Shown one piece after another: positions 25,674 through 46,053 of a stretch of 64,000 nucleotides of DNA. The notes beneath the pieces are model-generated. The model did no database searches and was not told the DNA's origin. It saw only the letters and a list, made by a program, of their open reading frames with translations. The translations under genes were made by a program, and so were the position numbers. Every line of letters begins with the position of its first letter. Position 1 is the first letter of the stretch. This DNA is from Cafeteria roenbergensis (taxonomy: Eukaryota; Sar; Bigyra; Bicosoecida; Cafeteriaceae), in assembly GCA_008330645.1 (NCBI GenBank), contig VLTN01000070.1:1-64000 (forward strand). Reading direction: 5' to 3'.

Positions 25674-26261
25674 TCACTCCTCGCCCTCACGCAGCTCCGG
25701 CTTCCAGACAGTGCGCTCCCAGTAGTCGCTGCCCCAGCGGAAGCGGGAGGGCAGGTCGCACTGCTCGAACAGCTGCGCCATTGCCATGCCCAGCACGTGC
25801 TTGCAGTCGCTGCCGGTGGTTCGCAGCTCAAAGGGGATCTTGCGGAAGTGGCCGGCCGTCGAGGTGCGCACGTAGAAGACGAGGGTTTTGCGAAGCACCG
25901 GCATCTCGGTCTCGTGCTGCCCGGACTTGGCCTGGCCGAGGACCTCCTGCAGCTGCTGCATCGACGCGTCGTTCTGTTCCCTGAGCTCCGGGTGACGGCT
26001 GAACAAATCTGGGTGCACCTTGGTCATGAACTTGCGGAAGACGTCCTTAAAGAGCGGGTCGTCGTCGGAGGGCCGCATCTTGGCGCGCTTCTGGGCCCCC
26101 GCGTTGAGCTTCACGCGCCGCACTGCCTTGAGCTTGCTGGCCGTGCCCATGCGGCGAACCGCGGCGGCCGCAGGGGCGGCTGCGCGGAAGGCTGCTGCGG
26201 CCGGCCGAGCCGTGGCCGCCGCACGAGCGGCTCCTGCCGCACGCATCACGGCGGCGCGCAT
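25674..26261 (-). CDS. Mitochondrial TCAIM-like (DUF4460) protein
   Basis: Short protein (195 residues) with a mitochondrial presequence: an Arg/Ala-rich start (MRAAVMRAAGAARAAATARP) without acidic residues. The body matches the J-domain-like N-terminal module of TCAIM/DUF4460 proteins: LFKDVFRKFMTKVHPDLFSR, then HPELREQNDASMQQLQEVL. The C-terminal half (LRKTLVFYVRTSTAGHFRKI; DYWERTVWKPELREGEE) is also typical. Animal TCAIM is longer and has a second domain that is missing here. Its biochemical role is unknown. The frame is open further upstream, but the ATG at 26261 begins the presequence and lies 196 bp from the divergent TTLL start. Confidence 0.75.
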   Translation of the reverse strand: MRAAVMRAAGAARAAATARPAAAAFRAAAPAAAAVRRMGTASKLKAVRRVKLNAGAQKRAKMRPSDDDPLFKDVFRKFMTKVHPDLFSRHPELREQNDASMQQLQEVLGQAKSGQHETEMPVLRKTLVFYVRTSTAGHFRKIPFELRTTGSDCKHVLGMAMAQLFEQCDLPSRFRWGSDYWERTVWKPELREGEE

Positions 26262-26377
26262 CTCGGAGGGGGCTCCAAAGTGCTGCGGCGGGTCAGCCCG
26301 CCTGGAAACCGGCCTGGCGAGCCTCCGCTGCCGGAACTTTGTGGCCCGGCCGCGTCCTCCTCGGGGGTCGCGCGGGC

Positions 26378-26386
26378 GGCTCTGCC
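26378..26386 (-). promoter_or_regulatory. GGCAGAGCC promoter word between the TCAIM-like and TTLL genes
   Basis: Exact match on the minus strand in the 196-bp divergent gap, 117 bases before the TCAIM-like ATG and in its sense direction. A near match (GACAGAGCC) follows at 26392-26400. Confidence 0.5.
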
Positions 26387-26457
26387 GGCCCGGCTCTGTC
26401 ATGCGCGCAAGTTGCTCGCGCCGGGCTTGGAGCACCGGCTCGAGGCGCCCGGCTGCG

Positions 26458-29400
26458 ATGAGCGCAGAAAGTGTGCGGCCCCGGTGGCCGTACCAGGCGC
26501 TGTTTGTCAAGGCGGACCACTCTCGCGAGCTCGTGGCCGAGCTGTTTGTCGGGGAGCGCCGATGGTGGAAGGTGAGCGAGGGCTGGCACGCCGATCTGGG
26601 CGGCCAATGCAACAGCCTGCCAGGGCGCCCGCGTCGACGCCGCCGGCCGCCGGCCCCCAGGCGCGCGGTCCGCGGCGATGGCGCCCGCGACTCGCGGGGC
26701 AGCCGCGCGGGGAGCCGCGGGTGGTCAGGCCGCCTCGGGTCGGCCCCATGCAGCTGCGCCGGGTCGGCACCCATGCGTGGCCCCGTGCGGGGCTGCAGGC
26801 GCGGGCCGGCTTGGCCAGCAGCGTTCCCAGTGGGAGGACGCTGCGCCAGCGTGGCGGGCGAATCGACGGTTGGGCGGCCGGGGCAGCCCGAGCCCGCTGG
26901 GCCGCGGGGCGGCGCACCAGGCCGCGAGTGGAGCGCGGATGACCGACGGATCCGATGCGCTGCCCCCGACGGCGCAAGCCGGGGGAGGGGGGGGGGGCTG
27001 GGCCACCTCGGCCTTGTACAACTCTGGGTCGGCCCTTGCCCCACCCCTGCGCACGCATGTGGTTCGGGGCGCTGGTCGCCCGCTGCCCGAGCTGGCAAGG
27101 GGCTTGGCCGGGGACAGCGACCGCGATTGCCTTGCGCCGCGGTCGTGCGGGGCGCACCTCGCCCGCCGCACGACAAGCCCGTCGCGCCCCAGCGCGCAGG
27201 CGGGCGCAGGGCGCGTTCGGGCGCTCTCCGCGCGTTCTTCGGCGGCTTTCGGCGGGGCCGGGGCACGGCCGGCCGGCGCGCGCGCCTGTCGCAAGCGCGC
27301 CGGCGCTGCGCGACGAGCTGCGGATTTGGTCCGCTGCAATCGGCCGTAACTCCCTCTCCCGCGTGCCCTCTCCCCCTGCCCCTTCCCGCGCGCGAATGCC
27401 CGCAGCTCGCGCCCCCTTGCCGCGACGACCAAGAGGACGGTGTGGAGGACGAGGCGGCTGCTTACGAGGCGGCCAAGGCCGGCCGGTTCTCGATGCTCTG
27501 GACTGACCACTGTGCGCTGGACGCGGGTTTCGGCCTCGAGCCCGTGTTCTCGCTGCTGCCGCCGGCGTCCAAGTGCCCGTCGCCGGGCATGCCGCCGTTC
27601 CAGGTCGTGAACCACATGCCCGGAAGCGATGCGCTGGTGACCAAGGACGGCCTGCTCCGCTCGCTGAACGCGGCCATGGTCTCCGCCGCCGCTCGGCCCT
27701 CGTCCGCGCGTGACGTCGCGTCGGGTGGCGCCCCAACCCACGTCTTCGACGTTTGCCCGACAACGTTCCTCGTCCGGGCCGGCCAGCGCGTGGACACAGA
27801 CTCTGCCTGGCAAGAGTTTGCGCGACGGTTTCGGGACGTCGGGGCCGGCCGCCCCGCGCTGCGGATGCCGCTCAAGCACTGCGCCGCAAACCTGTGGGCG
27901 CTCAAGCCCGTGCGCGGCGCTGGAGGGTCCGGCGTGCGCGTGTTCTCGGACATGCACGTCCTGATGGCCGCGCTGCGGCGCCGAGAGGGCTCCTACCTGG
28001 TGCAGAAGCTGGTCGAGCGCCCGCTGCTCGTGGACGGGCGCAAGGCAACCATCCACACGTTCCTCCTCGTCACCGACACGCTCGACGCCTACGTGTGGCG
28101 GGGCGCGTACGCGAGGCTGGCGTCCGTGCCCTACACCCCTGCAGCGGCGGACGCCGACCCTGCAGTGGCTGCCGCTGGGGCGGCGACGGCAGCAGCGAGG
28201 GGCAGCGCCGCCCCCCCCAGCGGTCCCACCGCCGCGTCGGCCATGCACGCGCGCTGGACGCACATCACCTCCTCCCCCGCCCAGGCCGACTGCGAGCACA
28301 ACGAGGAGTACGAGCCCGGAAACGTCCTTCCGCTTGCCAGCCTCATCGAGCGCATCGCGGCCCAGCGAGGGGGCGCGGACCACGGCGCGGTGCTCGGCGC
28401 GACCATGCCCCGCGTGCGCCGAATTCTGGCCGACGCCGTGCGGGGCGCCGCCCCCGCGCTCCGCGCCGGCTGCCGAGGCCGCCGCTGCTTCGAGATTTAC
28501 GGGGCAGATTTTGCCATTGACGAGGACCTGCGCCCCTGGCTGGTCGGCATCTCCGAGTGCCCCAGTCTTGACGGGCCCACGCACGAGCACGAGGGCAACA
28601 TTCGCTCCATGATGGCGCAAGCCCTCGCGCTCGCCATGGACCCCATCTTCCCCGCCGCAATGGCCCGGGCTCGAGGCGACGCCGCGGACGGTCGCGTGTG
28701 GATCGCCCCGCCGGGCCCGCCCACAGGCGCAGCGGCGGCGGCTGCAGCGGCGTCCGCCACCCAGCGCGCGGGCCCACCCTCTGCGGCCACGTCGCCGTCG
28801 CGCCACTCGGCAGCCAGATCCCCGCACGGCGGCCCCGGATCCGCTCCAGGAGGAGCGCCCCATCCGCCCCCAGGGAGGTCTCCCGGACAGTCCGGGTCGC
28901 CCGCCAATGCTGCCGCCGCGGCCGCGGCTGCGGCTGCGGCCTCGGCCGCCGCCGCCGTCGCCACTGGCGGCCCCGTTGCGGGCCTCGCGCCGGACGCCGG
29001 CCCGCTCGCTCGCGCCGCCGCGGCCAAGTCGCCCTTCTCCGGCTTTGACCTCGTGTTCCGCGTCACAGACGCCCCCGCCAGCCTGGACCCTGCAACCGAC
29101 GCCGCGTTCGAGCTTGCCTCCGAGACGGGCGAGGCAGCCCGCCGCCGCGTTCTCGCAGCGGAGGCCGTGTCCGACGCCGAGCTGCCCCCCCGCACGCTCA
29201 CCTTTGTCCCGGCTCGCGGGGTTGTTCCTGCCGAAGCCGCTGCGTCCGGCGTCAGCGCGTGGTGGCGCTCCGGGCTCGGCCTGGACGCGGGGCAGGTGCT
29301 TGAGGCGGACGGCGCCATGCTCGGCGGCCGCGTGGCCGGCCGATCGAGCGGACCCCCCGCGAACGACCACGAGGCCTCGGCAGGAGCAGCGACGGACGCG

Positions 29401-31524
29401 GCCGGCGGGGCGGTCGGATCCCAGTCGCCCGTCGTGACTGCCGCTGCCTCCGCTGCTGCCTCCTCGGCCGTTCAGCTGCGCCGCACCCGCTCCGCCCTCA
29501 ACAGAGACGCCTTCCCAGTCGACCCCAGCCCGCTGACCAGCCGCGATGGCGGCGTCGCCCTGCCCAGCAGCGCCAGCGGCTCCTTCACGCCCCGCCGCGC
29601 GGCGTCGACCCGGCTCGCTGGCCGGGGCGGTCCCGACGGCGCTGTGTCCTCCCCCGCCCCGGACGGGGCTTCTTCCGTTGCCGGCGCACCGCGGGCCCGA
29701 AGCCGAGGCGCGTCCGTCTCAGGCACGGGCTCCGGCTTGGGCCTGGGCGCCGGCTCGCCCCCGCGCTCGCCCTCGATGCGCAAGGCGCGCACCCGCGCCC
29801 TCGATCGCGTGCGGCACGAGCGTGCGCACGCCGAGGAGCTCCACGCCGCCGCCCGCCGCGCCGCGGCGCTCCTCGACGAGCTTCGCAACAAGGCGGCCGC
29901 GGCGCAGTCGGCCGGCGTCGCCGCCACCTCCACAGTGTCGGCTGCTACCATCGCCCAGCTCGAGGCCCTTGCGCAGCGCCTGGCAGTGGAGGCCAAGGCA
30001 GCCACTGCCGCGGCCGGCTCCCCTGCCCGCGTGCGCAACGCCGCGTCGCTCCACTCCTCCGCCGCTGCGGGCCGCCGGCCCCTCGGCCAGCGCCCCTCAA
30101 CGGCCGGCGCTGCCTCCCGCTCGCGCAGCGCCGGCCGGACCCTCACCTCTGGCAGAGCCGCAACGCCCTCCGGAAGCGCGGCCCTGGGCTTCATGTCCCC
30201 AGTCGGGCGCGGGGGCGGCCGGTCGCCCTCCGCCGGCAGCCGCCGCACGGGCGGCCCGGCCTCTGTGGCGTCCGCCGCCGACGGCCACGGCAGCCGCACC
30301 GCGAGGCGCCTCGAGTCGGCCAGGCGCGCGCAGAGCGCCCACCGGCGCCACCTTGCCTGCGTTCGGCCGCGGGTGGACACCGGCCAGACCGTGACCTCCG
30401 TAGGCCTCTCTCAGACGGCCAAGGCGGTCCGGCAGGCCGCCGCCGAGGCCGCCGAGGCTCGCAAGAACGCCTTCGTGCCCAAGCCCGCAGTCGGCCTGCA
30501 CCGCCTTTCGCCGGAGGAGCGGGCGGCGGAGCACAGGCGCCGGGCGGCGGCCTTGCGGCAGCGGGGCGAGCACAAGACTGACGCCTTCGCGGGCGAGGGA
30601 GACGCCTCCCCCGAGGCCGATCCGGCGGAGCGCCGCGACCCCGCCCTCAAGTCCGGGGACGGCGCCGAGGGGGCGTTCAGGATGATGACCGGCGCGGAGT
30701 TTGCGATGCACGCCAACCCGCGGCCGGCTCCCGCCCAGACGCGTTCCCCGGCGCCCCTGCGCCACGCAGCGCGGCACCGCGGTGCGTCCACTGACAGCGG
30801 CGCTGCCGCCGGGACGCATGCGGACGCCGACGCCGACGCCGACGAAGGCGCCGACGCCGATGCCGACGCAGGTGGCCGGGTTGTTGCCTCCGGGCAGGAG
30901 GAGGACGACTCCACCCCTCCCCAGAACAGCCCCGTGGCTTCCGACCGCTCGGCAGAGCTCGACCCGACCCGCCGTGCCCACGTCTCAGCCTCCGCCTCGC
31001 CCCAGAGCAGGCAGCCCGGCTCTCGCTCCGCAAGCCCGCACAGGTCCACCGACGCGCCGCACGGGGCAGTGCCCACGCGACCGGCGCCCCGCCCCCAGCC
31101 ACGCGCGCTGGACAGCGTGCGTCCCCGCGGCCCCCCGTCGCCCCTCGACCCGCAGCCCCAAGCCTCGAGCGAGACGCAAGGCAGGCCAGCGCCGTCGACA
31201 GGCAAGCCGGCCGCCGCCGGCAACGGCGCAGCCCCTGCAAGCTCGCCCTCGCGCAGCGACTCCGACGCCGACGGCAAGTCCCCTTCGGCTCCCCAGGCCA
31301 ACGGCAGCGCTGCCCACGTCGGCGACCCCCAGCCCAAGTCGTTCGACACCCCGGCCCTGGAAGTCTGGATCGAGACCCCTGCGCCTGCAGGCTCCGCCGG
31401 CGGAAGCGTCTACTTTTACAGGGCATCGGACCGTGTTGTGCAGTGGGAGCGCCCCACGGGGTCCAGCGTCCTCGTGATGACCCGCGCCGAGGCGGCTCAG
31501 CGTGCAGCCGCGACCGTGCGCTGA
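26458..31524 (+). CDS. Large tubulin-tyrosine-ligase-like (TTLL) protein with C-terminal WW domain
   Basis: Member of the TTL family, whose enzymes add amino acids to tubulin tails in axonemes and cytoplasmic microtubules. Exons 26458-26571 and 27406-31524 join in phase 0 (1410 residues); the 834-bp intron is the longest here and happens to stay open. The first exon ends in ERRWWK. The TTL domain spans about residues 60-430: DVCPTTFLV, ANLWALKPVRGAGGSGV (about 198-215), GSYLVQKLVERPLLVDGRK, FEIYGADFAIDEDLRPWL. Two motifs normally required for catalysis are altered (see findings). About 900 residues of low-complexity Ala/Pro/Ser-rich sequence follow, with a KxxxxLRQRG-type basic patch and an Asp/Ala repeat. 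A WW-type module closes the protein (EVWIETPAPAG, VYFYRASDRVVQWERPTG, about 1357-1390). It is head to head with the TCAIM-like gene. Confidence 0.88.
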   Translation: MSAESVRPRWPYQALFVKADHSRELVAELFVGERRWWKVSEGWHADLGGQCNSLPGRPRRRRRPPAPRRAVRGDGARDSRGSRAGSRGWSGRLGSAPCSCAGSAPMRGPVRGCRRGPAWPAAFPVGGRCASVAGESTVGRPGQPEPAGPRGGAPGREWSADDRRIRCAAPDGASRGRGGGLGHLGLVQLWVGPCPTPAHACGSGRWSPAARAGKGLGRGQRPRLPCAAVVRGAPRPPHDKPVAPQRAGGRRARSGALRAFFGGFRRGRGTAGRRARLSQARRRCATSCGFGPLQSAVTPSPACPLPLPLPARECPQLAPPCRDDQEDGVEDEAAAYEAAKAGRFSMLWTDHCALDAGFGLEPVFSLLPPASKCPSPGMPPFQVVNHMPGSDALVTKDGLLRSLNAAMVSAAARPSSARDVASGGAPTHVFDVCPTTFLVRAGQRVDTDSAWQEFARRFRDVGAGRPALRMPLKHCAANLWALKPVRGAGGSGVRVFSDMHVLMAALRRREGSYLVQKLVERPLLVDGRKATIHTFLLVTDTLDAYVWRGAYARLASVPYTPAAADADPAVAAAGAATAAARGSAAPPSGPTAASAMHARWTHITSSPAQADCEHNEEYEPGNVLPLASLIERIAAQRGGADHGAVLGATMPRVRRILADAVRGAAPALRAGCRGRRCFEIYGADFAIDEDLRPWLVGISECPSLDGPTHEHEGNIRSMMAQALALAMDPIFPAAMARARGDAADGRVWIAPPGPPTGAAAAAAAASATQRAGPPSAATSPSRHSAARSPHGGPGSAPGGAPHPPPGRSPGQSGSPANAAAAAAAAAAASAAAAVATGGPVAGLAPDAGPLARAAAAKSPFSGFDLVFRVTDAPASLDPATDAAFELASETGEAARRRVLAAEAVSDAELPPRTLTFVPARGVVPAEAAASGVSAWWRSGLGLDAGQVLEADGAMLGGRVAGRSSGPPANDHEASAGAATDAAGGAVGSQSPVVTAAASAAASSAVQLRRTRSALNRDAFPVDPSPLTSRDGGVALPSSASGSFTPRRAASTRLAGRGGPDGAVSSPAPDGASSVAGAPRARSRGASVSGTGSGLGLGAGSPPRSPSMRKARTRALDRVRHERAHAEELHAAARRAAALLDELRNKAAAAQSAGVAATSTVSAATIAQLEALAQRLAVEAKAATAAAGSPARVRNAASLHSSAAAGRRPLGQRPSTAGAASRSRSAGRTLTSGRAATPSGSAALGFMSPVGRGGGRSPSAGSRRTGGPASVASAADGHGSRTARRLESARRAQSAHRRHLACVRPRVDTGQTVTSVGLSQTAKAVRQAAAEAAEARKNAFVPKPAVGLHRLSPEERAAEHRRRAAALRQRGEHKTDAFAGEGDASPEADPAERRDPALKSGDGAEGAFRMMTGAEFAMHANPRPAPAQTRSPAPLRHAARHRGASTDSGAAAGTHADADADADEGADADADAGGRVVASGQEEDDSTPPQNSPVASDRSAELDPTRRAHVSASASPQSRQPGSRSASPHRSTDAPHGAVPTRPAPRPQPRALDSVRPRGPPSPLDPQPQASSETQGRPAPSTGKPAAAGNGAAPASSPSRSDSDADGKSPSAPQANGSAAHVGDPQPKSFDTPALEVWIETPAPAGSAGGSVYFYRASDRVVQWERPTGSSVLVMTRAEAAQRAAATVR

Positions 31525-31715: not shown

Positions 31716-34700
31716 TCATTCGAGGTCCAAACACAACTCCTCGAGGAGACGGTCCGCCCGCAGCGGCTTCACGAGCACCTCGCGGACCCCCAGCCCGCGA
31801 GCCTCGGCCTCCAGCGGCCTCGACGACTCTCCCGTAGCCAGCACCAGCAGCGGCCCGCTCGCGCTCCACCGCTCGTCGCCGCCCACACGCCGCCCCGTGG
31901 CGTCCACCGCCTGCCCCCAGGCCACGCCCTGCCCCATGGCCCGCAGCGCCCGCACCGTGGCCAGCCCGTCCAGCCGCGGCATCTGCGAGTCGATCACCAG
32001 CGTGTCCGGGAAGCGGCCGCCCGTGGTCTGAAGCTCTCGCAGGCGCGCGACCACGTCGGCGCCGTCGGCGAAGCCCTCCACTCTGGCGCCCCACCGCTCG
32101 AGCAGGCGGCGCTCGACGCGCAGGACGGTTGCGTCGTCGTCTGCGAGCCACACGGTGCGCCCCGCAAGCGGCTGCTGCTGCTGGCTCGCCCCGCTCGCCT
32201 CGGGAATCGAGGGAAAGATGCGTGACGCAGAAACTGGAGGCGAGACAGACTTGACTGCGAGTCCGAGCGGGGCGCCCGCGGCAGCGGGCGCGGGCACCAT
32301 CCACACCGGCGCGCGCAGCCACAAGTGCGCCCCCCTACGCCGACCCCCGCTCGCCACGCCCGCCTCGCCGTGCAGCGACGTCGCCACCCCGCGCAGCACC
32401 GCAAGCCGCAGACCGTCGCCGCTCAGCAGGTCCTCCGCAGTGGCCGTCGTCGACGAGGCCGCGCCAGAGCGGTCGAACGGCTCGAACGGGTCCCGCTCCA
32501 GCAGCTGGGCCGCGTCGAACCCGTCGCCGTCGTACCGCACCTCCACGACAAGCTCGCCTGCCACCACCGGTCCGGCCCCGGCCGGAGGCGGCACGGCCTC
32601 GAACGTCGGCGGACGGCCCAGGTCGCCGACGGCGGCGACGACGCTCACGGCCACCTGCACGCTGGGGCCGGCCGATGGCTCCGCGGACGCCGACGCGGAC
32701 ACCAGGCCGCTCGACGACACTGCCGCGGACCCCTTGGGGTCGTGCGGGAGGAGCTTCCGGGCCTCGCGCCTGGCGCCAGCGGCCGCGGCGAAGGAGCCGA
32801 GAGCCAGCATGGCCACAGCTGCGTGGAACACCCGGGCGTGGTCGGTGAGGACCAGCCAGCCAGCTGCGGGAGCGAGCCTCCTATCGCCCGGGGAGAGCCA
32901 TCCTGCTCTGGCGGAAGCGTGCTCAGCGGTCCTGCCTCGCGCGCCCTCCGCTGTTGCGCTAGCCGGGCGGAGGTCCGTCCTGCCGAGCCCCGGGCCGACG
33001 GCGCTTGCCGAAGTGGAAGTACTGTCCTGCCTGAGGCCGTGAACCAGCAGCTCAACGCCGGCCTCCGTCCGCTGCCCCTCGAAGTGCTGCTCTAGCCGGC
33101 TGCGCCACCTGCGAGTGAAGCCAGCCCACGACACGTGCGTGGCAGCCTTTCGCGTCCCCAGTCGCTGCCACAGCAGCAAGTCGTCGAGCTGCTGCTTCGC
33201 CGACTCGAGCGAGGTGCCCAGGTCTCGAAGCATCGATGCCGAGGTTGGCGTCGCATCGCTGAGCAGCGAGAGCCGCTGCGACCGCCCCGTCAGCAGGCTG
33301 TGCTGAGCCCAGTACACATCGCTTGCTCTTGGCGATGCGCTCAGCATGGCGGCTCTCGGGGACGCAACTCCGAGTCCCGCCTGCGAGCTCCATTGCTGGC
33401 ACGATTCTTCAAGCACCGTGAGACACATCACAGCCGCGTTGAGCGGGCCCCGAGTGTGGTGGCTGACGTAGGTGACGGCATGCAGAAGCTGCCGGTCGGC
33501 CTTGGCTCGCTGCGCCGTGCGGGCAGCAGTGAGGCCGAGCTGCAGCTGGAGCGTCATGGACACGGCGGGGCCAAGCATCAGTCCCAGCGCGCCGACAAGC
33601 AGCGCGGCATCTGTGGTGCTCAGTGCCCACAGCAGGTCCTGGCCGTCGCTTGCACCTGCATCCAGCCCGTCCGGGAACGGACCTGGCGGGCTTGCTTGCG
33701 AAGCAAGGCGCTCCCACCCAGAGCAAACTTGCCACATGCCGAACGTGACGAAGACGAAGCCGTTGAAGGACCCAGACAGCGCTCGAATGAGCAGCACAAA
33801 GAACCCCACCAGGTCAATCGAAGTCCTCAGCATGACGCGCCGGCGTAGCGACGTCAGAAGCCATGCCCGCATCGCTCCCAAGCCCGCAGGCGACTGCTCC
33901 CCGGCGGGGAAGGCGATATCGATCGTCCCTTGCAGCAGCGGGATGCTTAGCATGTGGAGGAACCCCCCAGATCCCACGACGACCAGCGCGGCAGCAATGT
34001 GGCCCAGCAGCCCCAGCGCGAATGCGCCCGTCAGCCAAACCTCGGCCGTCATCATCAGCAGGGACGCGGCCGCACCGCGGGTCAACTGGAACCAACCGCC
34101 CCGCCCGCAGCGCCTCACCACGCGGTCGTCCTCCTCCGGCCACTCGGTCCCGATGTGCGCCGTGGTCACCGACGAGGTCAGGAACATCACAATCGACGAC
34201 CTCAGCACGTGTAGGCAGCTCCCTGGCCAGAACGGAACTGGAACCCACGCGAATCGCGCCCCAGTCGCCGGCGGCCACAGTAGGCACTGCATGCACACCA
34301 CCACCAAGAAGGCAACAATTCTGCAAGGCACCACAGGCGCGGGGGCAGTCGCGGTCGTGGCGTCGACGGCTGCTTGCGACACATCGCGCCGTCGAGATGC
34401 CGTGCAATTGCCGTGCACTCACCTGGAACGGAGACTGGGGGCCGCCGCCATGGGCGTCGAGAGCGACAGTGCAACGACTAGACACACCAGCACCATAACC
34501 CCAACCATGGCGCCGCGGGCGACGAGGTGGCCGTGGTTGAAGGCTTCCAGGGCTGCAGCGCGCTGCGCAAACGCCACGGACCCGGCAGTGGAGTTCCTCC
34601 AGGCCACCCCCAGCGCAGCATGCGCAGCGGCCAGCGGGTCCTCGCGTGACACGAGCCACGGCCGGCCTGGGCTGTCCGTGTGACTGGCGATGAGGGCTAC

Positions 34701-34853
34701 TGTCACGGAGATGGCCACATGCAGGACCGCAACGTGCGAGCGGTTAAGCACAAGTTGTCCGCGAGACTGCCCAGCCGAGGGGGCTCGTCGCCCAATGCGC
34801 GTGCTGGTGGCCGTTGCTTCATGGGGGCGGGCCAGCTGCAGCAGCCGGCCCAT
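31716..34853 (-). CDS. Multi-TM hybrid histidine kinase, copy 1
   Basis: Membrane sensor with histidine-kinase and receiver modules. Exons 34853-34423 and 34320-31716 give 1011 residues; the intron is only 102 bp. The N-terminal half has several TM segments (VAVLHVAISVTVALIA; GVMVLVCLVVALSLS; IVAFLVVVCMQCLLW; VGFFVLLIRALSG) and no known extracellular domain. The dimerisation helix carries the H-box (YVSHHTRGPLNAA). The ATPase-like domain has a recognisable frame (LVVEVRYDGDGFDAA; EPFDRS; SGDGLRLAVLRG) but lacks standard ATP/Mg-binding residues. The receiver domain (about residues 865-1005) looks intact: acidic pocket LADDDATVL, phosphoacceptor in LVIDSQMPRLDG (D921), and LVKPLRADRL with the conserved lysine. 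It forms a tandem pair with copy 2 (35104-38272), with parts of the 3' half nearly identical in DNA. Confidence 0.9.
31740..33281. repeat. Duplicated segment of the histidine-kinase pair, copy 1
   Basis: Blocks 31740-32172, 32288-32867 and about 33055-33281 match copy 2 at about 99, 99 and over 90 percent by eye, with no indel in the first two. The stretches between the blocks do not align. Confidence 0.9.
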
Positions 34854-35103
34854 GCCCGCGGTCGGCGAGGCGAGGGTGACACAGCGGGAAGCCGACTCAG
34901 GGCGGTGGGTGTGTTGAATCTCTCGTGTTGATTCGGGCCTGCAGGGCCCATTGCTAGTTGGCCGCGCAGAATAATAGAACACTTGACGCAGCTAACGTCA
35001 CCCACACACGCAGCGATGCGGCGCAAGCCGAAACGAGCGCGCAGCAAAAGAAGTCACTGCCCAAGCAATAAAGGGCGGAAATGATGACAAAAGCACCGGC
35101 GGA

Positions 35104-38100
35104 TCAATGTGTCAAGCCCTCGAGGAGACGGTCCGCCCGCAGCGGTTTCACGAGCACCTCGCGGACCCCCAGCCCGCGAGCCTCGGCCTCCAGTGGCCTC
35201 GACGACTCTCCCGTGGCCAGCACCAGCAGCGGGCCGCTCGCGCTCCACCGCTCGTCGCCGCCCACACGCCGCCCCGTGGCGTCCACCGCCTGCCCCCAGG
35301 CCACGCCCCGCCCCATGGCCCGCAGCGCCCGCACCGTGGCCAGCCCGTCCAGCCGCGGCATCTGCGAGTCGATCACCAGCGTGTCCGGGAAGCGGCCGCC
35401 CGTGGTCTGAAGCTCTCGCAGGCGCGCGACCACGTCGGCGCCGTCGGCGAAGCCCTCCACTCTGGCGCCCCACCGCTCGAGCAGGCGGCGCTCGACGCGC
35501 AGGACGGTTGCGTCGTCGTCTGCGAGCCACACGGTGCGCCCCGCAAGCGGCCGCTTCTCGCCTCTCGAAGAGCGCCAGCTCATCAACAACATGCCCTGGG
35601 CCGGCTGCGTTCGAGTGCGCGTCGTGGGTCTCATCGAGGCCCTGGAGGGAGCCTGTGCAGCAGCCGCAGGGCCCAGGACTTTGGACGGTCGAGGAGGGGG
35701 CGCGGGCACCATCCACACCGGCGCGCGCAGCCACAAGTGCGCCCCCCTACGCCGACCCCCGCTCGCCACGCCCGCCTCGCCGTGCAGCGACGTCGCCACC
35801 CCGCGCAGCACCGCAAGCCGCAGACCGTCGCCGCTCAGCAGGTCCTCCGCAGTGGCCGTCGTCGACGAGGCCGCGCCAGAGCGGTCGAACGGCTCGAACG
35901 GGTCCCGCTCCAGCAGCTGGGCCGCGTCGAACCCGTCGCCGTCGTACCGCACCTCCACGACAAGCTCGCCTGCCACCACCGGTCCGGCCCCGGCCGGAGG
36001 CGGCACGGCCTCGAACGTCGGCGGACGGCCCAGGTCGCCGACGGCGGCGACGACGCTCACGGCCACCTGCACGCTGGGGCTGGCCGATGGCTCCGCGGAC
36101 GCCGACGCGGACACCAGGCCGCTCGACGACACTGCCGCGGACCCCTTGGGGTCGTGCGGGAGGAGCTTCCGGGCCTCACGCCTGGCGCCAGCGGCCGCGG
36201 CGAAGGAGCCGAGAGCCAGCATGGCCACAGCTGCGTGGAACACCCGGGCGTGGTCGGTGAGGACCAGCCAGCCAGCTGCATCTACGGCCGCTCGCCTAGC
36301 TCCGAGCATGTCTGAGATGCTGGTCCTCCGGGACACTGCCTGCGGGCCTTTCGGAAGAAGGGCACCTTCACTTGCGGGGAAGACTGCGCTCCGACGCTTC
36401 TGCTGCCACGATGCCCGAGGCGGCTGCCCCGGTGCCTGAATGACGAAAATTAGCTCCACGCCGGCCTCCGTCCGCTGCCCCTCAAAGTGCTGCTCCAGCC
36501 GGCTGCGCCACCTGCGAGTGAAGCCCGCCCACGACGCTTGCGTGACGCACTTCGTCGCTTCCAGCCGCTGCCACAGCAGCAAGTCGTCGAGCTGCTGCTT
36601 CGCCGACTCGAGCGAGGTGCCCAGGTCTCGAAGCATCGATGCCGAGGTTGGCGTTGCATCGCTGAGCAGTGAGGGCCGCTGCGACCGCTGTGCCAGCCGT
36701 ATGGTCGAGTGCCTGCCCACAGAAACCACCCGGGGCGTCATCGTGAGGGTGGCAGCGCTGGGGGCGCGGGCGATGCCACTGAGCTCGCCGCCGCCGCCGC
36801 CCTTGCGCTCGTGATAATCCTGCAGGACTGCCAGGCACAGCACTGCCGCGTTGAGCGGTCCCCGAGTGTGGTGGCTGACGTAGGTGACGGCATGCAGAAG
36901 CTGCCGGTCGGCCTTGGCTTGCTGCGCCGTGCGGGCAGCAGTGAGGCCGAGCTGCAGCTGGAGCGTCATGGACACGGCGGGTCCAAGCATGTTTCCGAAA
37001 GCAGCCACATTGAACCCAGCGTCCAGCACCGCCATGGCAAAGAAGAGCTCCTGGGTGTCCTTCGCACCGGCGTCGAGTCCGGCCGGAAACGGGGCTGGCG
37101 GATCGGCCTGCGATACCAGCCGGTTCCACGCGCTGCACACCGGCCAAGTGCCGAAGACGACCATCATAGTCACGATCATGACCATGGATGCGATCCGCAC
37201 CATCAGCACAACCTCGCTGACAACTTCTACTGTCGATCGGCACCTGCCCCTGCGGCTCCGCGACGTTGCCAGCCACCCGAAAAATGAGTCCCAGCCACCG
37301 GGCTGCTGGGCGCCAGGGACAATGGCATCGAGGACCGCCTGAGCCAGGGGAACCCAGGCGGAATGCACAAGTGCCCGAAACACGATTGTTGCCACCGCCA
37401 GTTCAAACGTGACGATTTGCCCCGTGAGCAGCAAGTATGTGATCCAGCCGTCAGCGATGACCAGCGACATCGCTGCCAAGAAGCCCCGCGACACGAGCAC
37501 CCAACCACTGTGGCCGAAACGAGCGATTACTCGCTCGTCCTCCGCTTGCCACTCCAGCGCAATGTGGGCCGACGTGACCGACGAGATGAGGAACATGCCC
37601 ACAGATGAAACTTGCAGTGTGGCACAACTCCCAGGTGCAAATGGCAAGGGCACGAGACCAAACCGAGCCCCTGTGGCAGTCGGCCACATGGCGGCATGGA
37701 GGCACATGATGAAACCAAAGGCAGAAATCCTGCGGGGCGCAGTGCAGCTCGCAGGGATGGGACGCGAGGCGGTGGCACGCGCCCCTGGGCAACGACTCGA
37801 GTCGAGCTCCAGTCCGCTGCGTGTTTCGGACTCACCGAGACCGAGGGCCGTGTGCGGCAGCCGATGGCATCGTCAGCGAGAGGGCTACCACGAGGCACGC
37901 CAGGACCACGACGCCAGCCATGGCCCCGCGCGCAACGAGGTGGCCCGTGTCAAACGCGTCAGCGGCAGCGCCGCGGCGGGTGAATTCAGCAGTGCCCGAA
38001 GAGGAGTTGCGCCAGGCCTCGCCAAGCGCTGCGCTGGCAGCATCCAGCGGATCGTGCGGGCCGACCAGCCACGGCCGGTGGATGCCCGCACTGTGGCCTG

Positions 38101-38272
38101 CCATAAGCGTGACCGCCGCGTTGATCGCGGCATGCAGAACTGCCGAGTGGGCCCGGTTGAGCATCAGCACACGCTTTCCCCTAGTCGCCCCGCCTGCCCG
38201 CCGCGGGCGGCTGCCTCTGCGGATAGTCGCCGTTGCCTCGCCCTCATGGGCCAGCTGTAACAGCCGGCCCAT
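35104..38272 (-). CDS. Multi-TM hybrid histidine kinase, copy 2
   Basis: Tandem paralogue of the preceding kinase. Exons 38272-37836 and 37729-35104 give 1020 residues, with the 106-bp intron at the same position and phase as in copy 1. The membrane half is clearly diverged (for example ARFGLVPLPFAPGSC against ARFAWVPVPFWPGSC) but keeps the same TM pattern. H-box YVSHHTRGPLNAA, the ATPase-like domain and the receiver (LADDDATVL, LVIDSQMPRLDG, LVKPL) are almost identical to copy 1, including the unusual ATPase motifs. Differences cluster in two linkers and at the last residues (LLEGLTH). No frame damage is seen, so both copies are probably functional. Only 250 bp separates it from the copy 1 start codon. 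Confidence 0.9.
35119..36684. repeat. Duplicated segment of the histidine-kinase pair, copy 2
   Basis: Blocks 35119-35551, 35700-36279 and about 36458-36684 correspond to the copy 1 blocks. Coordinates stay in constant register inside the first two blocks, so they contain no net indel. Confidence 0.9.
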
Positions 38273-38605: not shown

Positions 38606-41600
38606 CTACGCTCGCGCGAGCCTAACCATAGCCTCTGCTGTTGCGAGAGCGGCTCCCACGGCGTCGCTGTCCGCACTGCCCTCCATGTCAGTGCGCAGGC
38701 GCAGCAGCGCGGCCGCCTCCTCGAGAGTCAGGCGCGAGCAAGACACGGCCCACTCCTCGGCCGCGTCCTCCAAGTTGTCACTGCTCAGCAGGCGGGCCGC
38801 TTGCAGCAGGCGCACAGCCTTCGCCCTTGCCTTGAGCCCGCCAAACGATTCAAGCAGGGCGGCCAGGTCTCCGGCGTCCTGCTCGATTCTGAGGGCGCCT
38901 GAAGCCGAGACCTTCCGACGGCTGACCGCGTCGAGCAGTCGCTTGCAAATGAACCCTCCGATCACGACCGAGCAGTCCCGCGCAACATCGTCCGAGAGCA
39001 GCACAGCCCAGGGGCTCATGATGCGACGGAGGCCGCCAATCACCTCTTGCGCGAACGGCCTGCCCTCGTCCGAGTCCCCGAAGCCCACGCTATCAACGTC
39101 GTACCTCACAAGCGGCGCCGACCCTGCAAGAGGCATGGTCGTTGCGCGCAAGGCTGGCGAGAGGGTCGCGCACAAGCGCTGGAGCGCCACCTTTCCCGCT
39201 TCTGCCAGCGAGGAGGCCGCCTTCTCCATCGCCAGCGCCGCGGCCTCGACCTGGGGCACAGAACCAGCAGCCAGCGGTCCGCCCGTAGCCTCCGCCGCCG
39301 CGTCTGCCGACGCCTCCCACAGCAGCCGCATCGGCTCTGAGGAGCCTTGCTCTCGAACCCACGCTGCCATGGCTCGCGCCTCCGCCGCCGCAGCAGCCAT
39401 CGCGTTGAGCGTAGCAGCAGCTGCGGCCTGCTCCGGCCCGACGCGGGCAAGCGGGTCGACGTCAGCCGGCGGGGCCGACGACGCGCCCTGGGGTCCCTCA
39501 GAGCCGCGGTGGGCGTCAAGCGCCGCCGCCGCCATCGCCCATGCAGCCTGCCGCACCGCTGAGACGACGTCCGCGTCGGACTCCGCGACCGGCACCAGGG
39601 AGTCGTCATCGTCGTCCGCCGGCGCCGAGGCCGCTGCCCTGCCCGACACAGCCGCCGCGGCCTTGGCAGTCGACGCGACGGCGCCCGTGGCCGTGGACAC
39701 AACTGCTGCCATGGCGGCTGCCGCTCCGACGGGCGAGCGCAAAGCCCCGTCCGCAGCCCCACCGGCGCGGGCTCCGCTGTGGCCCGACCCCCTGCTGCCC
39801 CGCACCCTCAGCGGCATGGCCTGGCCCCGCTCGCCCAGCAGCGCGCGGGCTCTCTGCCTCAGGCCGTTGCGCAACCCGTCCTGCCAGGCGTCCGCCACCG
39901 CCCTCGCCACCCGCGCCAGCACGACCGGGTCCCCGGACGACGCGGCTCTGCCGAGGCTCTGCCGAGCGACCCAGGCCGCGTCCTCCACAAGGGAGGTGGA
40001 CGACGGGCTGACCCCCGCAGCTGTTTCGAGGGCTGCCACCCTCGCCAGCCCCACCTCCAGCTGGAGCTTCTCCAGGGGCACGATGACGGCCACGCACTCG
40101 TCGCAAGCCGCGACCAGCGCTCGGCACCGCTCCTCCACAAACCGCAGCGCCCACACTCGGGACCCTCGCGCGCCCCGGGGGCTGGCCCCCGCCGAGCCGC
40201 CCTGGGCGCCGAGCGACGCCCCCGCCCCGTCGCAGGCCCGCGCGGCGCGTTCCAGAAGCAGGGTTCGGAACCGCGTGCCGCGCTGCAGGGCCATCACCGC
40301 GGCGTCGAGCGCAGCGCCGAGGGCGGCAATGCCGCTGCCTTCAGCGGCGGCAGCGCCAGCGGACTGCGCGCCGCTCCGGGCAGAGCCGGCCACCAGTCCG
40401 TCAAGGCGCCGTCCGAGCGCGACCCACATGCAGCCGGCCCTGCCGCCCTCCATGGGGCCGGCGTCGGGCGCCTCTGCCGCCTCTGCGAATGCCAGGCAGG
40501 GGTTGAGGCCCGCCCCGGACACAGAGGCAGCGTCCTTCAGCACGCTCTGCAGTCCGGCTCTGCCGATGACGAGGCCAGTCACGGCCTCGCTGGTGGCGAG
40601 GAGGCGGGTGGCCAGCGCCGCCGGAGCGGCGGCCTCTGCGGCCGCTGCCGCGGCCAGCAGTCTCGATCCCTCGCCACGCCGGCCGGGTAGAGGCCTCCAC
40701 AGGTCTCCAGCGGCACGGCCGGCACCGCGCGGGTCAGCGCGCGCCGGGGTAGTGGCCTCGGCATCAGCACTGTCCGGCGACGCAGTCTGCGATGACGGCT
40801 CGTCGAACGTGGCTGCAACGAAAGACCCCGCCGCTTGAACGGCGCGCATGGCGGTGGCAAACACAGCCGACGCCACGTTGATCGCCACGGCAGGTGCCTC
40901 GGCCACTGCGGGGCCGAGGGCCGCGGAGTCGCTCCACTCCTTCCAAGCCCGGATGAGATCCTTCTCCTCCGACAGCACGGATGTCCCCCGTCCAAGGGCC
41001 GCGGCCGCCTCCGCATCGCCACGACCGCCGCTGTCGCCGTCGCCGTCGCCGCCACCGATGCGGCCGGCGCTGCCGATGCCACCGGCGGAGCCGCCTTGCA
41101 GGGCGGACAGTGCAGCCGCTGGTAGCCCCGCCCGCAGCCGCGCCCTGAAGTGAGAGATGAAGATCTCCAGTCCCTCCGCGCCGCGCCCCAGCACTGCCAG
41201 CACGCGGCACTGTCGCGAAACCGCTGCCTCATCGCCGTTTTCCACTGCAAGCTGGAGTGCGTCCCGAGTGTCCTTGACAACGCGCCGTTCAGCGTCGCTG
41301 ACGCGCTGGCGGTCATCGGGGGCAACGGGGAGGGTCTGTGCAACGCCCCGGAAGCGCTGGATTGCAAGGGCAGCTGCCTCGGCGTCGCCCACGCGAAGCG
41401 CAGAGGCGATGTCCGAGGTGCAGGCGCGCAGCTCCACAACGTCGTCCACGCGCTCCAAGGCGCGTTCCGACCGGCACAGGGCGGCGTGAAGGACCGACAC
41501 ATCCTCAATGGCGAGCGCGGCAGCGGCGAGGGAGGAGCGCAGGCCGGCCTGGAGGCCAGCGGCGCTTTGCCTCGCCGAGTCCAGCAGCCGAGCCGCTTGC

Positions 41601-41839
41601 GCCACCGCGACTGCACGCTGCCCCAGGGGCACGCTCTCCCCGCCAGCAAACGGAGCCACGTTGGTGCTCTCGGCGTCGGAAGCGCTCGGCAGCAGCTTCG
41701 CGCGCGTCTCAGCACTCAGGCCTGACCACGAAGGCAGCCGCGCGTCGGCAGCAATCTCTGCTCGCACGTGAGCTTCAAACTGGCGTGCCGCATCGAGCTC
41801 CGCGCTTGCCTGCTGGATGGCAGCGTCGACGGCGTCCAT
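38606..41839 (-). CDS. COG4: Conserved oligomeric Golgi complex subunit 4
   Basis: Subunit of the COG tether, which retrieves glycosylation enzymes within the Golgi. Single exon of 1077 residues, longer than human COG4 (785) because of Ala/Gly-rich inserts. The N-terminal half has the helical-bundle pattern of COG4: VVELRACTSDIASALRVGDA followed by AAALAIQRF, and FISHFRARLRAGL. The C-terminal block is the best evidence: GGFICKRLLDAVSRRKVSA, then DLAALLESFGGLKARAKAVR and WAVSCSRLTLEEAAALLRLR, matching the conserved COG4 C-terminus (LEKA...FNQLGG...LVSYF...WRLTPxEVRxVLxLR). The upstream in-frame TTG was not used; the ATG at 41839 starts MDAVDAAIQQASAEL. It is divergent from the seven-TM kinase. 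Confidence 0.85.
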   Translation of the reverse strand: MDAVDAAIQQASAELDAARQFEAHVRAEIAADARLPSWSGLSAETRAKLLPSASDAESTNVAPFAGGESVPLGQRAVAVAQAARLLDSARQSAAGLQAGLRSSLAAAALAIEDVSVLHAALCRSERALERVDDVVELRACTSDIASALRVGDAEAAALAIQRFRGVAQTLPVAPDDRQRVSDAERRVVKDTRDALQLAVENGDEAAVSRQCRVLAVLGRGAEGLEIFISHFRARLRAGLPAAALSALQGGSAGGIGSAGRIGGGDGDGDSGGRGDAEAAAALGRGTSVLSEEKDLIRAWKEWSDSAALGPAVAEAPAVAINVASAVFATAMRAVQAAGSFVAATFDEPSSQTASPDSADAEATTPARADPRGAGRAAGDLWRPLPGRRGEGSRLLAAAAAAEAAAPAALATRLLATSEAVTGLVIGRAGLQSVLKDAASVSGAGLNPCLAFAEAAEAPDAGPMEGGRAGCMWVALGRRLDGLVAGSARSGAQSAGAAAAEGSGIAALGAALDAAVMALQRGTRFRTLLLERAARACDGAGASLGAQGGSAGASPRGARGSRVWALRFVEERCRALVAACDECVAVIVPLEKLQLEVGLARVAALETAAGVSPSSTSLVEDAAWVARQSLGRAASSGDPVVLARVARAVADAWQDGLRNGLRQRARALLGERGQAMPLRVRGSRGSGHSGARAGGAADGALRSPVGAAAAMAAVVSTATGAVASTAKAAAAVSGRAAASAPADDDDDSLVPVAESDADVVSAVRQAAWAMAAAALDAHRGSEGPQGASSAPPADVDPLARVGPEQAAAAATLNAMAAAAAEARAMAAWVREQGSSEPMRLLWEASADAAAEATGGPLAAGSVPQVEAAALAMEKAASSLAEAGKVALQRLCATLSPALRATTMPLAGSAPLVRYDVDSVGFGDSDEGRPFAQEVIGGLRRIMSPWAVLLSDDVARDCSVVIGGFICKRLLDAVSRRKVSASGALRIEQDAGDLAALLESFGGLKARAKAVRLLQAARLLSSDNLEDAAEEWAVSCSRLTLEEAAALLRLRTDMEGSADSDAVGAALATAEAMVRLARA

Positions 41840-42139
41840 GCTCAATGCGGGCCGCGCTGGCTGGAGCACGCTGCGGGCCTGAGCGCGACGCAACGAGGAT
41901 CCGCAAATGCCAGGCGCAGCTCAAGAGCTCTCGCGAGGCCTGAGGCGGTGCGGGACACGCTCAGGACGGACAGCAGCACGCACGGGCCGAGCCAGGGGTG
42001 TGGATGCTGCCAGCAGCGGGACTCGCACACCTGGGATGTGTTTGGAGCCTGCGCGCGAGCAGGGCAGTCCGCCGCCCAGTTCCTAGTTGCGACTCCCAAT
42101 TCAGCGCGGCTTGTTTTGGTGTGCGCGAGGGGCTCCAAT

Positions 42140-42640: not shown

Positions 42641-45600
42641 ATGGCGAACGTGGTCGGCAACAGCGCCCTCGCCCACAGCGCCGTGCTGGACTGGTCGGCC
42701 GGGCTGGGCGGCGACAACCGCGACATCCCCCTCCCGGACAGCATCTGGGCGGCGCTGATCCTTGGCTCCATGGGCTTGATGCTGCTGCGGGACTGGTGCA
42801 AGTCGACGGACAAGCAGGCATCGCGCTGCGTGCCTCTCGCCCTCAAGGGCGTCTACCGTGTGGTGGCCGTGGCGTTTTGCTTGCTGCTGGCCGCTTCTGT
42901 GTCTCTGTACCTCTTTGAGGAGTGGTACAAGTCCGCCTTTCCCTCGCTTCAGCTGGCTGGGCTGGGAGTTGAAACTGTGGTGTTGTTGAGCTTGGCGGGC
43001 CTGCGCATGGCCGCGCTCGAGGGCGTGTTCGCCCTGTTGGGATTTTACTTCTCCCAAGCCTCTGTGATTAGCGTGCGCGTCTCAGCCGCGGTCATCCCAG
43101 CAGGCATCTGGGCTGCAGTTTGCGGCTTGGCGTCGTTCGTGACTTCCGCGCTCGTGGCCTTCAGCGGCGCGCCGGCAGACACCGCCCAGCTCATCCTGGC
43201 CCTCACCATCGCCTGCGCCACCATCGTCGCGTGCGCCGTGGCCCCGTTTTGCTTCGGCGTGGGGAGGCCCTCGCTGCGCGTGTGGGGTCTGGGCGTGGTG
43301 ATCATCCGCTCGCTGCAAGTGCTCGCGCTGCTGCTCGAGGCCCTCGGGCCAGTCAACGACGCACTCCCCTGGATCACCCCGGGGTCTTCGGTGGCGTCCA
43401 CCTGGGGCTTTGTCGTGGACACCGCCTTCCTCGTCTGCATGTCAGGCGGTTTCGCGCTGACGGCGCTGCTGGCGCTCCGCACCGACGTCGTCTTCCTCGG
43501 GCTCTTCCACCGGTCGCTCGAGTACCAGGCCGCCATGATCGACGGCGTCGGCGAGAACCCCTTCGGCCTGACGTCCCCCCGGCTGGGCTGCACGCAGTGG
43601 TGCGGCGCTCTGTGCTGCGCCTGCGGAAGCATTGATGCAGCATCGGTCCCGTACGCCTTCGCGTACGGGCCCGCCCTCTCCCCGTTTGAGGGCCGTGGAC
43701 TGCGCCCGCCGTACGTGTGCGAGCTCTGCTTCCGGCCGGAGGCATCGAGCCGGGAGGTTTTGCGATTCTACGCGGCTGCCTGCCGCGAGCGGGAGCGAGA
43801 GCGGGCGGCGATATTGCGCGCCGGGATCGGCACGGAGGCGGCCTTGATGCCCTCCAGCACGCGCGACGCGGGGCCGTTTGGCAGGGGTTTGCTTGCGCAG
43901 TCCGCGTCAGACGACGGCGCGGGGTTCCCAGTCGTCGGCGACGACGGCGACGACGACGACGACGACGATGACGACAGCTACGGACACAGCGGCCGTCAGC
44001 ACGCTGACACGCGGGTCAAGGCGCCAGCGGCGGTCAGAGGGCCGCGCCGCGGTGGCGGGCGGCCGGAACGCCGCCTTCCTCGCGCACTTGCGGGAGGCAC
44101 GGCCGCGAGCGGCTCCGCGCGGCGCCGGAATGGCGCTAGCCAGCGCGCGTCCGGCCGGTTTGCCAGGTGGATCGCGGAGCCTGAGGACAGAGCCGCGCTG
44201 AGCGACGACGACAGCGTGCTTGGTGGCCGCGGGTCCAGGGAGCGCCGGGCGGGCAGGGATGCCCGAGCGGGCGGCGGGAGGCGAGGGGCGGGGGCCGGCC
44301 CGGGTCAGGGCAACTTCGGCCCCGCAGGCGGCGGCTTTCGTCGGGGTCAGGGGCGCGGAGGCGGATTCAGGGCGGGAGGGCTCGGCGGCGAGGAGGAGGC
44401 GGAGGGGGCTGAGGAGGACGGCGACGGCTACGGGTACGGGTACGGGTACGGCGCTGACGAGGATGACGACGAGGACGACGAGGACGACGTGCGCGAGGAC
44501 AGGGTGCTGTGGGGGCTGGAGACGCTTCTTTCGCACAGGGGAGGGGGCGGCTGCCGACGGGTCGTTGTCCGCCGCTGCTGCGGCGGCTTCTGCTGCTGGT
44601 GCTGGTGCTGCGGCGGCGGCGGCGGCCAGGGGGGCAGGCCCGGCCACCCCGCCTCCGCTCACGCCGCGTGGGAAGCACAGGCAGGGGCGGCGCTGCTGGG
44701 CGCCGGCGGAGGCGGCCGGCCGGCCACAGCGGCGACCGATCTCTACCAGGGCGCCGCCTTCGCCACCGGAGCCGGATTTGGCCGGCGCGTCGCTCTGTCG
44801 GACTTTAGGCCAGTGTCCGTGTGGGGCCGGCGGGCACTCACTCCGCGCTGCATCGGCTGCGTGTGCCCGTGCGTGCCCCCCCTTCGGGCCCCCGGTCTCG
44901 AGTCGATCATCGGCCGGTCAGCTGTGCATCGTCAGGCGGCAGAGGCGTCGACGTCCTTCGCCGCCGTGCGAATCGCGCGCTCCAGGCGGCTCCTTGCAAA
45001 GGCCTTCACGCGGTCGCGCCACCTGTCCGTGGCTGTGGCAACGCCCGGCGGCGGGCTCGTCGAGCTGGCGCTGGGCACCGTGCCCGAGGCCGACCCCGCC
45101 AGCGAAGTGAAGGCTCTCGACTCGCAGCGGCTGCCGTGGAGCCGGAAGGAGTCACTGCGTCTCTCATTCTGCGAGTTCAGGGGCGGGCTGGCGATGGAGT
45201 CGATTCTCCGCATCATCGGCGCCAGCGGCCACCGCGTGCTCGACCTCGCGCGCCTCCGACACACGCTGCCCATCCACGCTGGTGACTGCAGCGTCGTGTT
45301 CGCGGGCTGGTACGCCTCCACCCCCGTGGTCTCCAAGGCGCACTTCGACGGCTTCGGCAAGTTGGCCAGGGAGTGTGCCGTCGCGACGGCCCTGCCGCGG
45401 AGCCCGCGGCTCTGCCGCTTCGTCGGGCAGGTGCTGGTGCCGCCGACGTTCCTCCTGGTGTATGAGCGCGAGCATTTCGGCAGCGCCAGCCAGCTGCTGG
45501 AGCGGGTGGCCAGGGCGCGACGGGCTCTCATGGCCGCGCGTGGGGCAGTGAGGCTGCGGATGGGAAGGATCTCGGACCGGGATAGCAGAGCTGGGCAGGC

Positions 45601-46021
45601 GCAGGGGGCAGAGCCGCTTGCGGTCGCTGCCACAGCGGCCGCTGCTGCGGCTGCTGGGGGCGGTGGGGGGGAGCGGCAGGAGCGGCAGGAGCGGCGGCCC
45701 GGCCTCGGAGCCCGTGCGTCGGCAGAGCTGGCTGCGGCAGAGCCGGTTCTGTTCCCGTGGCGGGACAACATCAGGGGCAACCCGATCGACTGCTCGTTCG
45801 GCGGCAACGCTGCCACGGTGCCCGACTGGTTGCTCGGCGTTGCGGCCTGGCTCGAGGAGCAGGGCGTGCCGGCGACGGCCGAGGAGGAGGAGGAGGCTGA
45901 GGAGGACGGCGGGGCAGCTGGGGGCGCGGGCAGCGGCGACGGCTACGGCTTAGGAACCGGCGCCCTGACCAGCAGCAGCGCCTCGGAAGCGTCGGAGGAG
46001 GAGGATGGGGACGAGGGCCAA

Positions 46022-46053
<32 letters not shown>

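Follow-up and report, generated by a model that had tools for sequence, protein, structure and literature searches.

Arrays of tandem receptor genes in which gene conversion keeps one part alike while another part varies are a known phenomenon, as the protocadherin cluster Pcdh2 of fugu illustrates. There the 3′ parts of the genes are >99% identical in nucleotide sequence and the 5′ recognition parts share 57-80% protein identity; that report describes a discrete domain boundary, a higher GC content at third codon positions (GC3) in the identical part, and converted sequence that is specific to each subcluster (PMC1852091). The tandem cysteine-rich receptor-like kinases of plants are likewise tandem receptors for which both conversion and unequal crossing-over have been invoked; conversion of single domains with the linkers left out is not described in the part of that paper available to us (PMC6368629). 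Here we describe two tandem genes of the flagellate Cafeteria roenbergensis, C70a (copy 1) and C70b (copy 2), both on the minus strand of a 64,000-nucleotide stretch (the window; positions 1-64000 of contig VLTN01000070.1, hereafter C70; GC content 71.8%). Hybrid histidine kinases consist of a sensor followed by DHp, CA and REC (receiver) domains, and this is the order of parts that we recognize in the predicted C70 proteins.

The C70 genes and their relatives have much in common with fugu Pcdh2: tandem membrane receptors, a variable recognition half, a homogenised other half, a discrete boundary, and converted sequence specific to each cluster. They also differ from it. Fugu Pcdh2 genes encode fish adhesion proteins with one boundary and one block per gene, the homogenised part being the C-terminal ectodomains, whereas the C. 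roenbergensis genes encode a two-component-type receptor of a protist in which mostly cytoplasmic signalling domains are homogenised, and in C70 and a second cluster (C38) as separate DHp, CA and REC blocks with the linkers skipped. We found no report of gene conversion among protist histidine kinases in titles and abstract beginnings from a partially covered literature. As far as that literature shows, the several separated blocks per gene with skipped linkers, their recurrence in three clusters, the gene family and the lineage are new.

When C70a and C70b are aligned base by base, divergence is distributed very unevenly along the genes (all coordinates are window positions on the minus strand, copy 1 before copy 2). 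The CA block, the HATPase-like part (32286-32867; 35698-36279), contains 2 mismatches in 582 nucleotides (nt), or 99.7% identity, without an indel. The REC block (31740-32171; 35119-35550) contains 5 mismatches in 432 nt (98.8%), and BLASTN, which aligns a slightly longer segment, gives 7 in 441. The DHp helices are homogenised too, more weakly: the first, with its H box (SHHTRGPLN in copy 1; 33408-33587; 36820-36999), is 90.0% identical and the second (33048-33236; 36451-36639) 90.5%, with best stretches of 95-99%. In contrast, the membrane halves share 60% protein identity in exon 1 (34423-34853; 37836-38272) and 43% in the sensor part of exon 2 (33588-34320; 37000-37729), and the linkers between the blocks cannot be aligned, with residue agreement in their aligned parts of 15.8% between DHp and CA (32868-33047; 36280-36450) and 23.5% between CA and REC (32172-32285; 35551-35697). 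The homogenised blocks are free of introns. An initial annotation, made from the sequence of the window, had described receiver and ATPase-like blocks about 99% identical without indels, membrane halves about half identical in protein and unalignable linkers, and each of these descriptions is borne out, the absence of indels for CA.

The contrast is sharper among codons that encode the same residue in both copies (Met and Trp excluded). The two C70 genes use the same codon at 187/188 such positions in CA (99.5%) and 133/137 in REC (97.1%), against 34/81 in exon 1 and 36/97 in the exon 2 sensor (37-42%). Intermediate values are found for the DHp helices (45/52 and 46/52) and the loop between them (16/26), and the linkers agree at 1/9 (DHp-CA) and 1/8 (CA-REC) codons. 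The sensor halves have thus diverged to synonymous saturation; CA and REC are near-identical at synonymous sites, and DHp more weakly so. Purifying selection on the protein cannot explain the C70 pattern.

Searches of the genome of the one strain on which all our evidence rests (36,303,456 bases in 167 contigs) located further family members as four tandem genes on contig C44 (C44a-d), three on C38 (C38a-c) and a lone gene on C8. These counts are lower bounds, with further weak matches on C13 and C14. Further copies, which the initial annotation proposed to look for, thus exist, and both other arrays contain mosaics. Between C38b and C38c, nucleotide identity is 97.5% in CA and 99.1% in REC, and the CA-REC linker agrees at 14.7% of residues; between C44a and C44d, it is 98.7% in CA and 96.8% in REC, with 21.8% of residues shared in the exon 2 sensor and 39.7% in a poorly alignable CA-REC linker. 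Within arrays, the same-codon match in CA and REC is 94.6-100%. Between loci it is just 49-73% (42/74 in CA and 27/51 in REC for C70a and C44c), so constraint and codon bias alone are insufficient to account for the identity. We used a run-length shuffle test in place of GENECONV. The longest run of same codons shared by C70a and C70b is 157, among 652 same-residue codons, and the maximum in 10,000 shuffles was 50; in all seven within-array pairs tested, of ten possible, the runs exceed those of all 10,000 shuffles. The same test gave p values of 0.04, 0.10, 0.81 and 0.99 for four between-locus pairs.

The edges of the blocks recur as well. Using the ungapped motif TDHAR as reference, the CA block starts 7 codons upstream in C70, C44a/d and C44c/d, 8 in C38a/c and C38b/c, and 11 in C38a/b. 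Relative to the motif ADDD, the REC block starts 9 codons upstream in C70 and C38b/c and 17 in C44a/d; C44c/d have no REC edge, since the CA-REC linker is common to both. The opposite boundary of REC varies more among pairs, and identity in C70 and C38b/c breaks off no more than a few codons from the stop. Block edges are therefore near the borders of folded domains in three separate clusters. In addition, the second DHp helix is 93.7% identical in nucleotide sequence between C38a and C38c, with C38b at 74-76% to either, which marks a separate tract with another pair of partners.

Trees of the two halves of the gene disagree for one array member. The sensor tree (416 columns, 10 rows) joins C44d to the three C38 genes with support 100/99, and a clade of C44a-d on the sensor is rejected (approximately unbiased (AU) test, p-AU 2.8e-5; 6.2e-6 without C38c). 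Its CA and REC residues are those of C44c across the 305 columns retained for the core tree. C44d is a C38-type sensor on a C44 core, and the histories of its sensor and core are incompatible. C70a and C70b are sisters in both trees, with sensor support again 100/99, so this test is silent for C70.

Base composition follows a similar partition. In array genes, GC3 is 87-98% in CA and REC, 69-79% in sensors and 55-80% in linkers and loops. Among DHp segments of the arrays, the mean is 88.5% for the 12 that are at least 90% identical to a neighbor and 72.8% for the remaining 6, and the two groups do not overlap (80.0 vs 78.3; Mann-Whitney p 0.0004). The p value becomes 0.003 when the two C8 segments are placed in the second group, and 0.0017 when C38c is removed, which leaves the second helix of C38a partnerless and makes the groups overlap. 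Over 71 gene-by-segment values (89 minus the C8 and C44b rows, with C44b still counted as a partner of others), the within-segment correlation between GC3 and identity is 0.52, a value reached in 0 of 10,000 permutations.

Recurrent interlocus gene conversion of whatever stays homologous, together with crossing-over, is in our judgment very probably the best explanation of these patterns. The C70 genes would be old tandem duplicates, each encoding a receptor that crosses the membrane several times and ends in a hybrid-histidine-kinase-like tail. Repeated conversion between neighbors would overwrite whatever protein constraint holds alignable, chiefly the folded domains, and the sensors and putatively disordered linkers, being free to change, would mostly lose homology and escape. 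Once homology is lost, conversion skips these parts, and the edges become sharp and stable near domain borders. The decay of sensors and linkers beyond alignment suffices to confine conversion, and no special targeting would be needed, although selection for an interchangeable output may act in addition; where these parts are still alike, as in C44a-c, conversion would reach them too. The process is probably GC-biased.

Crossing-over has left its own trace in C44. C44c switches its resemblance close to where CA ends: upstream of this point it follows C44b, its sensor being 96.5% identical in nucleotide sequence to that of C44b and ~42% to that of C44d; downstream of that point it resembles C44d, with a REC free of differences. 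The 600 nt of 3′ flank compared between C44c and C44d, which reach into the next gene, contain 3 differences, and C44b shares 104 nt of flank past the stop with one mismatch, while C44a shares none. This pattern is of the kind that a crossover between misaligned cores would leave behind. Because the crossover lies in the core, the homogenised cores are also where this array gains genes; near-identical cores may thus double as sites of unequal crossing-over that multiply whole genes.

Several observations weigh against so simple an account. First, all 7 block mismatches between the C70 copies lie toward the outer ends (in CA at 102 and 199 of 582; in REC from position 242 of 432 onward), leaving 383 + 241 = 624 nt identical on the two sides of the unalignable CA-REC linker. 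A single tract across this linker should have copied it too. The arrangement would therefore call for either two recent tracts or one in which the linker was looped out of the heteroduplex. Second, the start of CA is not marked by an edge in C44a and C44c. Identity continues upstream through DHp-CA linker sequence (72 codons, 96.8%), and the pair also shares sensor stretches of 24 codons (95.8%) and 43 codons (99.2%), so domain limits are not strict in C44. Third, one crossover is not the whole history of C44, because its two sides are unequal (96.5% for the b/c sensor, 100% for the c/d REC). Fourth, the core tree is weak, with support of just 65/56 for the C44 clade; the converse test on the core is uninformative because C44c and C44d are identical there and were left free, and the groups for the AU test were named after the sequences had been seen. 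Fifth, the lone C8 gene, for which no partner was found in the genome, is GC-rich as well (87% in CA, 85% in REC, 87-90% in DHp and 92% in the DHp-CA linker; 81-92% overall, with one linker at 74%), so high GC3 is no proof of conversion. Conversely, the CA-REC linker common to C44b, C44c and C44d has a GC3 of just 71%, so identity and GC3 can part; we read this linker as recent copying rather than repeated conversion. The GC3 p values are also too small, because the rows are kin, the cut-off was our own choice and the groups were chosen after inspection of the data. Finally, all of the evidence comes from a single strain. The 43-codon stretch of C44a and C44c (GIDTRGCDEW...) lies in the exon 2 sensor, with the rest of these sensors diverged, and represents a converted tract outside the signalling domains.

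The initial annotation had attributed the C70 mosaic to domain-limited gene conversion rather than simple duplication. Conversion as the mechanism for C70 is supported by saturated sensors next to near-zero core divergence, by the mosaics of the arrays, by the discordance of C44d and by raised GC3 in the homogenised segments of all three clusters, the last alongside a GC-rich C8 and the low-GC3 C44 linker. The limitation to domains describes C70 and fits the recurring CA edge, but does not extend to the sensor and linker stretches shared by C44a and C44c. Similarly, conversion in place of duplication stands for C70, while part of the identity in C44, such as that of C44c and C44d past the stop, comes from unequal crossing-over. 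The uniform core that the annotation ascribed to conversion may or may not reflect selection.

A more far-reaching interpretation is possible, though we consider it unlikely. Each folded signalling domain could be a conversion unit of its own, kept identical so that outputs are interchangeable across an array (for example, in mixed dimers), with GC3 recording the frequency of conversion per domain and the cores serving as crossover cassettes that add sensors. If this were true, the family would be a protist sensor repertoire with recombination fitted to domain structure.

An improbable alternative is that whole genes were duplicated recently and that sensors and linkers were then replaced from other genes, the cores remaining unconverted. 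The C38-type sensor of C44d on its C44-type core might likewise have arisen by a swap at the CA border. For C70, by contrast, the two sensors are each other's nearest relatives, and when the exon 2 sensor of copy 1 was searched against the genome, just three weak C44 matches came up beyond both copies. Shuffling would also demand separate frame-keeping swaps of exon 1, the sensor, the DHp loop and two linkers. As to a donor for the linkers, a search covering three of those in C70 (both CA-REC linkers and the DHp-CA linker of copy 2; the DHp-CA linker of copy 1 and those of the other arrays lay outside it) found that each matches itself alone, with no outside source elsewhere in the genome in a search that skips simple repeats and common words.

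Linkers of the family are translated, as no stop occurs in 2584 codons of DHp loop and linker from ten genes, where ~48 are expected and the other two frames hold 74 (C38c taken without its insert; excluding C38c, 0/2340 with ~42 expected). We considered that the linkers might be introns and rejected this, given the stop-free codons and the fact that the C70 linkers differ in length by multiples of three.

Homogenisation of the cores by unequal crossing-over alone, without conversion, is very improbable. It draws on the duplication of C44b, C44c and C44d with its junction in the core and on the near-identical flanks of C44c and C44d. Single crossovers, however, leave no two-sided islands, whereas identical CA and REC surround an unalignable linker in C70 and C38b/c and a poorly alignable one in C44a/d, and identity in C70 and C38b/c stops close to the stop codon. 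We see only a slight chance that the blocks were made identical by assembly collapse or short-read polishing. The assembly appears to be one made from PacBio reads and corrected first with these and afterwards with Illumina data (PMC6972860), and polishing can blend near-identical repeats. Against this, each C70 copy still has linkers and sensors of its own and 7 differences persist in the blocks, blocks of 432-582 nt are short relative to PacBio reads, mosaics recur on three contigs, and reads of truly diverged copies would be expected to escape mismapping. The idea that the signalling domains are simply under strong purifying selection, with the rest of the genes diverging in the ordinary way, deserves practically no credence: CA and REC do have many invariant positions and a narrow codon set, but synonymous sites are held by neither protein constraint nor codon bias, and the within-array and between-locus same-codon values refute such selection as sole cause.

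Pfam Response_reg matches both copies (E 1.4e-11 for copy 1 and 2.2e-11 for copy 2), and the receiver residues D486-D488, D536, T588 and K610 (copy 1 core numbering) are invariant in all seven aligned genes. HisKA falls below its curated cut-off (E 0.011 and 0.0056) and is absent from four other family proteins scanned; HATPase_c is likewise below cut-off (E 0.0095 and 0.0097), with E values of 0.0004-0.03 across all six kinase-part proteins. A PDB search with the core placed the best 60 of 85 matches entirely in the receiver. A CA profile, built from five rows of which one (C38b) is a misplaced slice, weakly matched AdeS, CheA, EnvZ and another histidine kinase (12 chains, E 0.0023-1.2). An AlphaFold2 model of the copy 1 core from a two-row alignment has a mean pLDDT of 32 and supports no conclusion.

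In domain order, the H-box histidine, the intact receiver residues and a weak resemblance of CA between F box and G2, the family resembles hybrid histidine kinases. The H-box motif (S/N/G)HHxRGPLN is present in 10/10 rows. The family departs from those kinases in a disordered-looking insert in the DHp hairpin and in the residue after the H-box His, which is His here and acidic elsewhere in histidine kinases. It also lacks two residues, the N-box Asn and G1 Asp, that bind Mg-ATP in histidine kinases. By motif reading, the helix that follows TDHAR is devoid of Asn in every one of the ten rows, and all ten have Tyr or Phe where the G1 Asp would stand; these losses rest on reading the sequences, because local PDB alignments of the N box and G1 box score below zero bits. 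With the ATP-binding Asn and Asp gone from CA in ten rows and REC intact where present, self-phosphorylation of the tail appears improbable. CA is probably a pseudokinase beside an intact receiver, and for REC, phosphorylation by a partner kinase or readout through contact is the likelier route; judged from motifs, the proteins should be labeled hybrid-histidine-kinase-like rather than active kinases. We infer that different sensors report via one interchangeable output.

Three tandem clusters in one genome amount to a repeated experiment, with the same domains and similar edges in different copies. They allow one to ask what limits gene conversion (lost homology, domain borders or selection) and whether GC3 records it, in an organism without a known sexual cycle (PMC6972860). 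The arrangement suggests a route by which a free-living flagellate can add sensors yet retain a common output. It also calls for caution, as trees built from such receptor cores may date the last conversion rather than the duplication.

The predicted C70 proteins comprise 1011 (copy 1) and 1020 (copy 2) residues. In copy 1, exon 1 runs from the ATG at 34853 to a GGTGAG donor and encodes an N-terminus that contains a loop and two predicted membrane helices; after a GT-AG intron of 102 nt (34321-34422), exon 2 (31716-34320) encodes a sensor membrane part with several predicted membrane helices, DHp, linker, CA, linker, REC and the stop. In copy 2, the GT-AG intron spans 106 nt (37730-37835) and exon 2 extends from 37729 to 35104. 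Since each gene has an intron, they start at 34853 and 38272. The predicted acceptors (CCTTGCAG in copy 1 and CCCCGCAG in copy 2) were picked from position and context; each C70 gene has two further in-frame AG sites, and most family genes have some. The donor is in phase 2 after (Leu/Pro)-Arg-x at the same place in 10/10 family genes, reading GGTGAG in 9 and GGTAAG in 1. Hydropathy, a crude method, gives 6-10 candidate membrane helices upstream of the H box for the nine scanned genes (all but C44b).

Open frames near the C70 pair match domains of COG4 (38606-41893, minus strand), tubulin-tyrosine ligase (26020-31524, plus), MYST histone acetyltransferase (54634-58584, minus) and protein kinase (42641-47746, plus), which marks the window as eukaryotic. 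In the C38 array, a repeated element of ~0.52 kb (C38:105.4-105.96 kb) splits C38c between its DHp and CA parts. Among the 55 matches listed for this element (40 of 193 candidates scored), at least 16 cover all 516 query bases, that in C38c included, and among the matches listed a second match lies 5.4-5.8 kb away in at least 7 contigs. The element fits the solo AB repeats of Ngaro retrotransposons as described in PMC8547959. In the same array, C38a (C38:96.5-98.8 kb) stops soon after the CA block, without a receiver domain, and an open frame on the opposite strand lies directly next to it.

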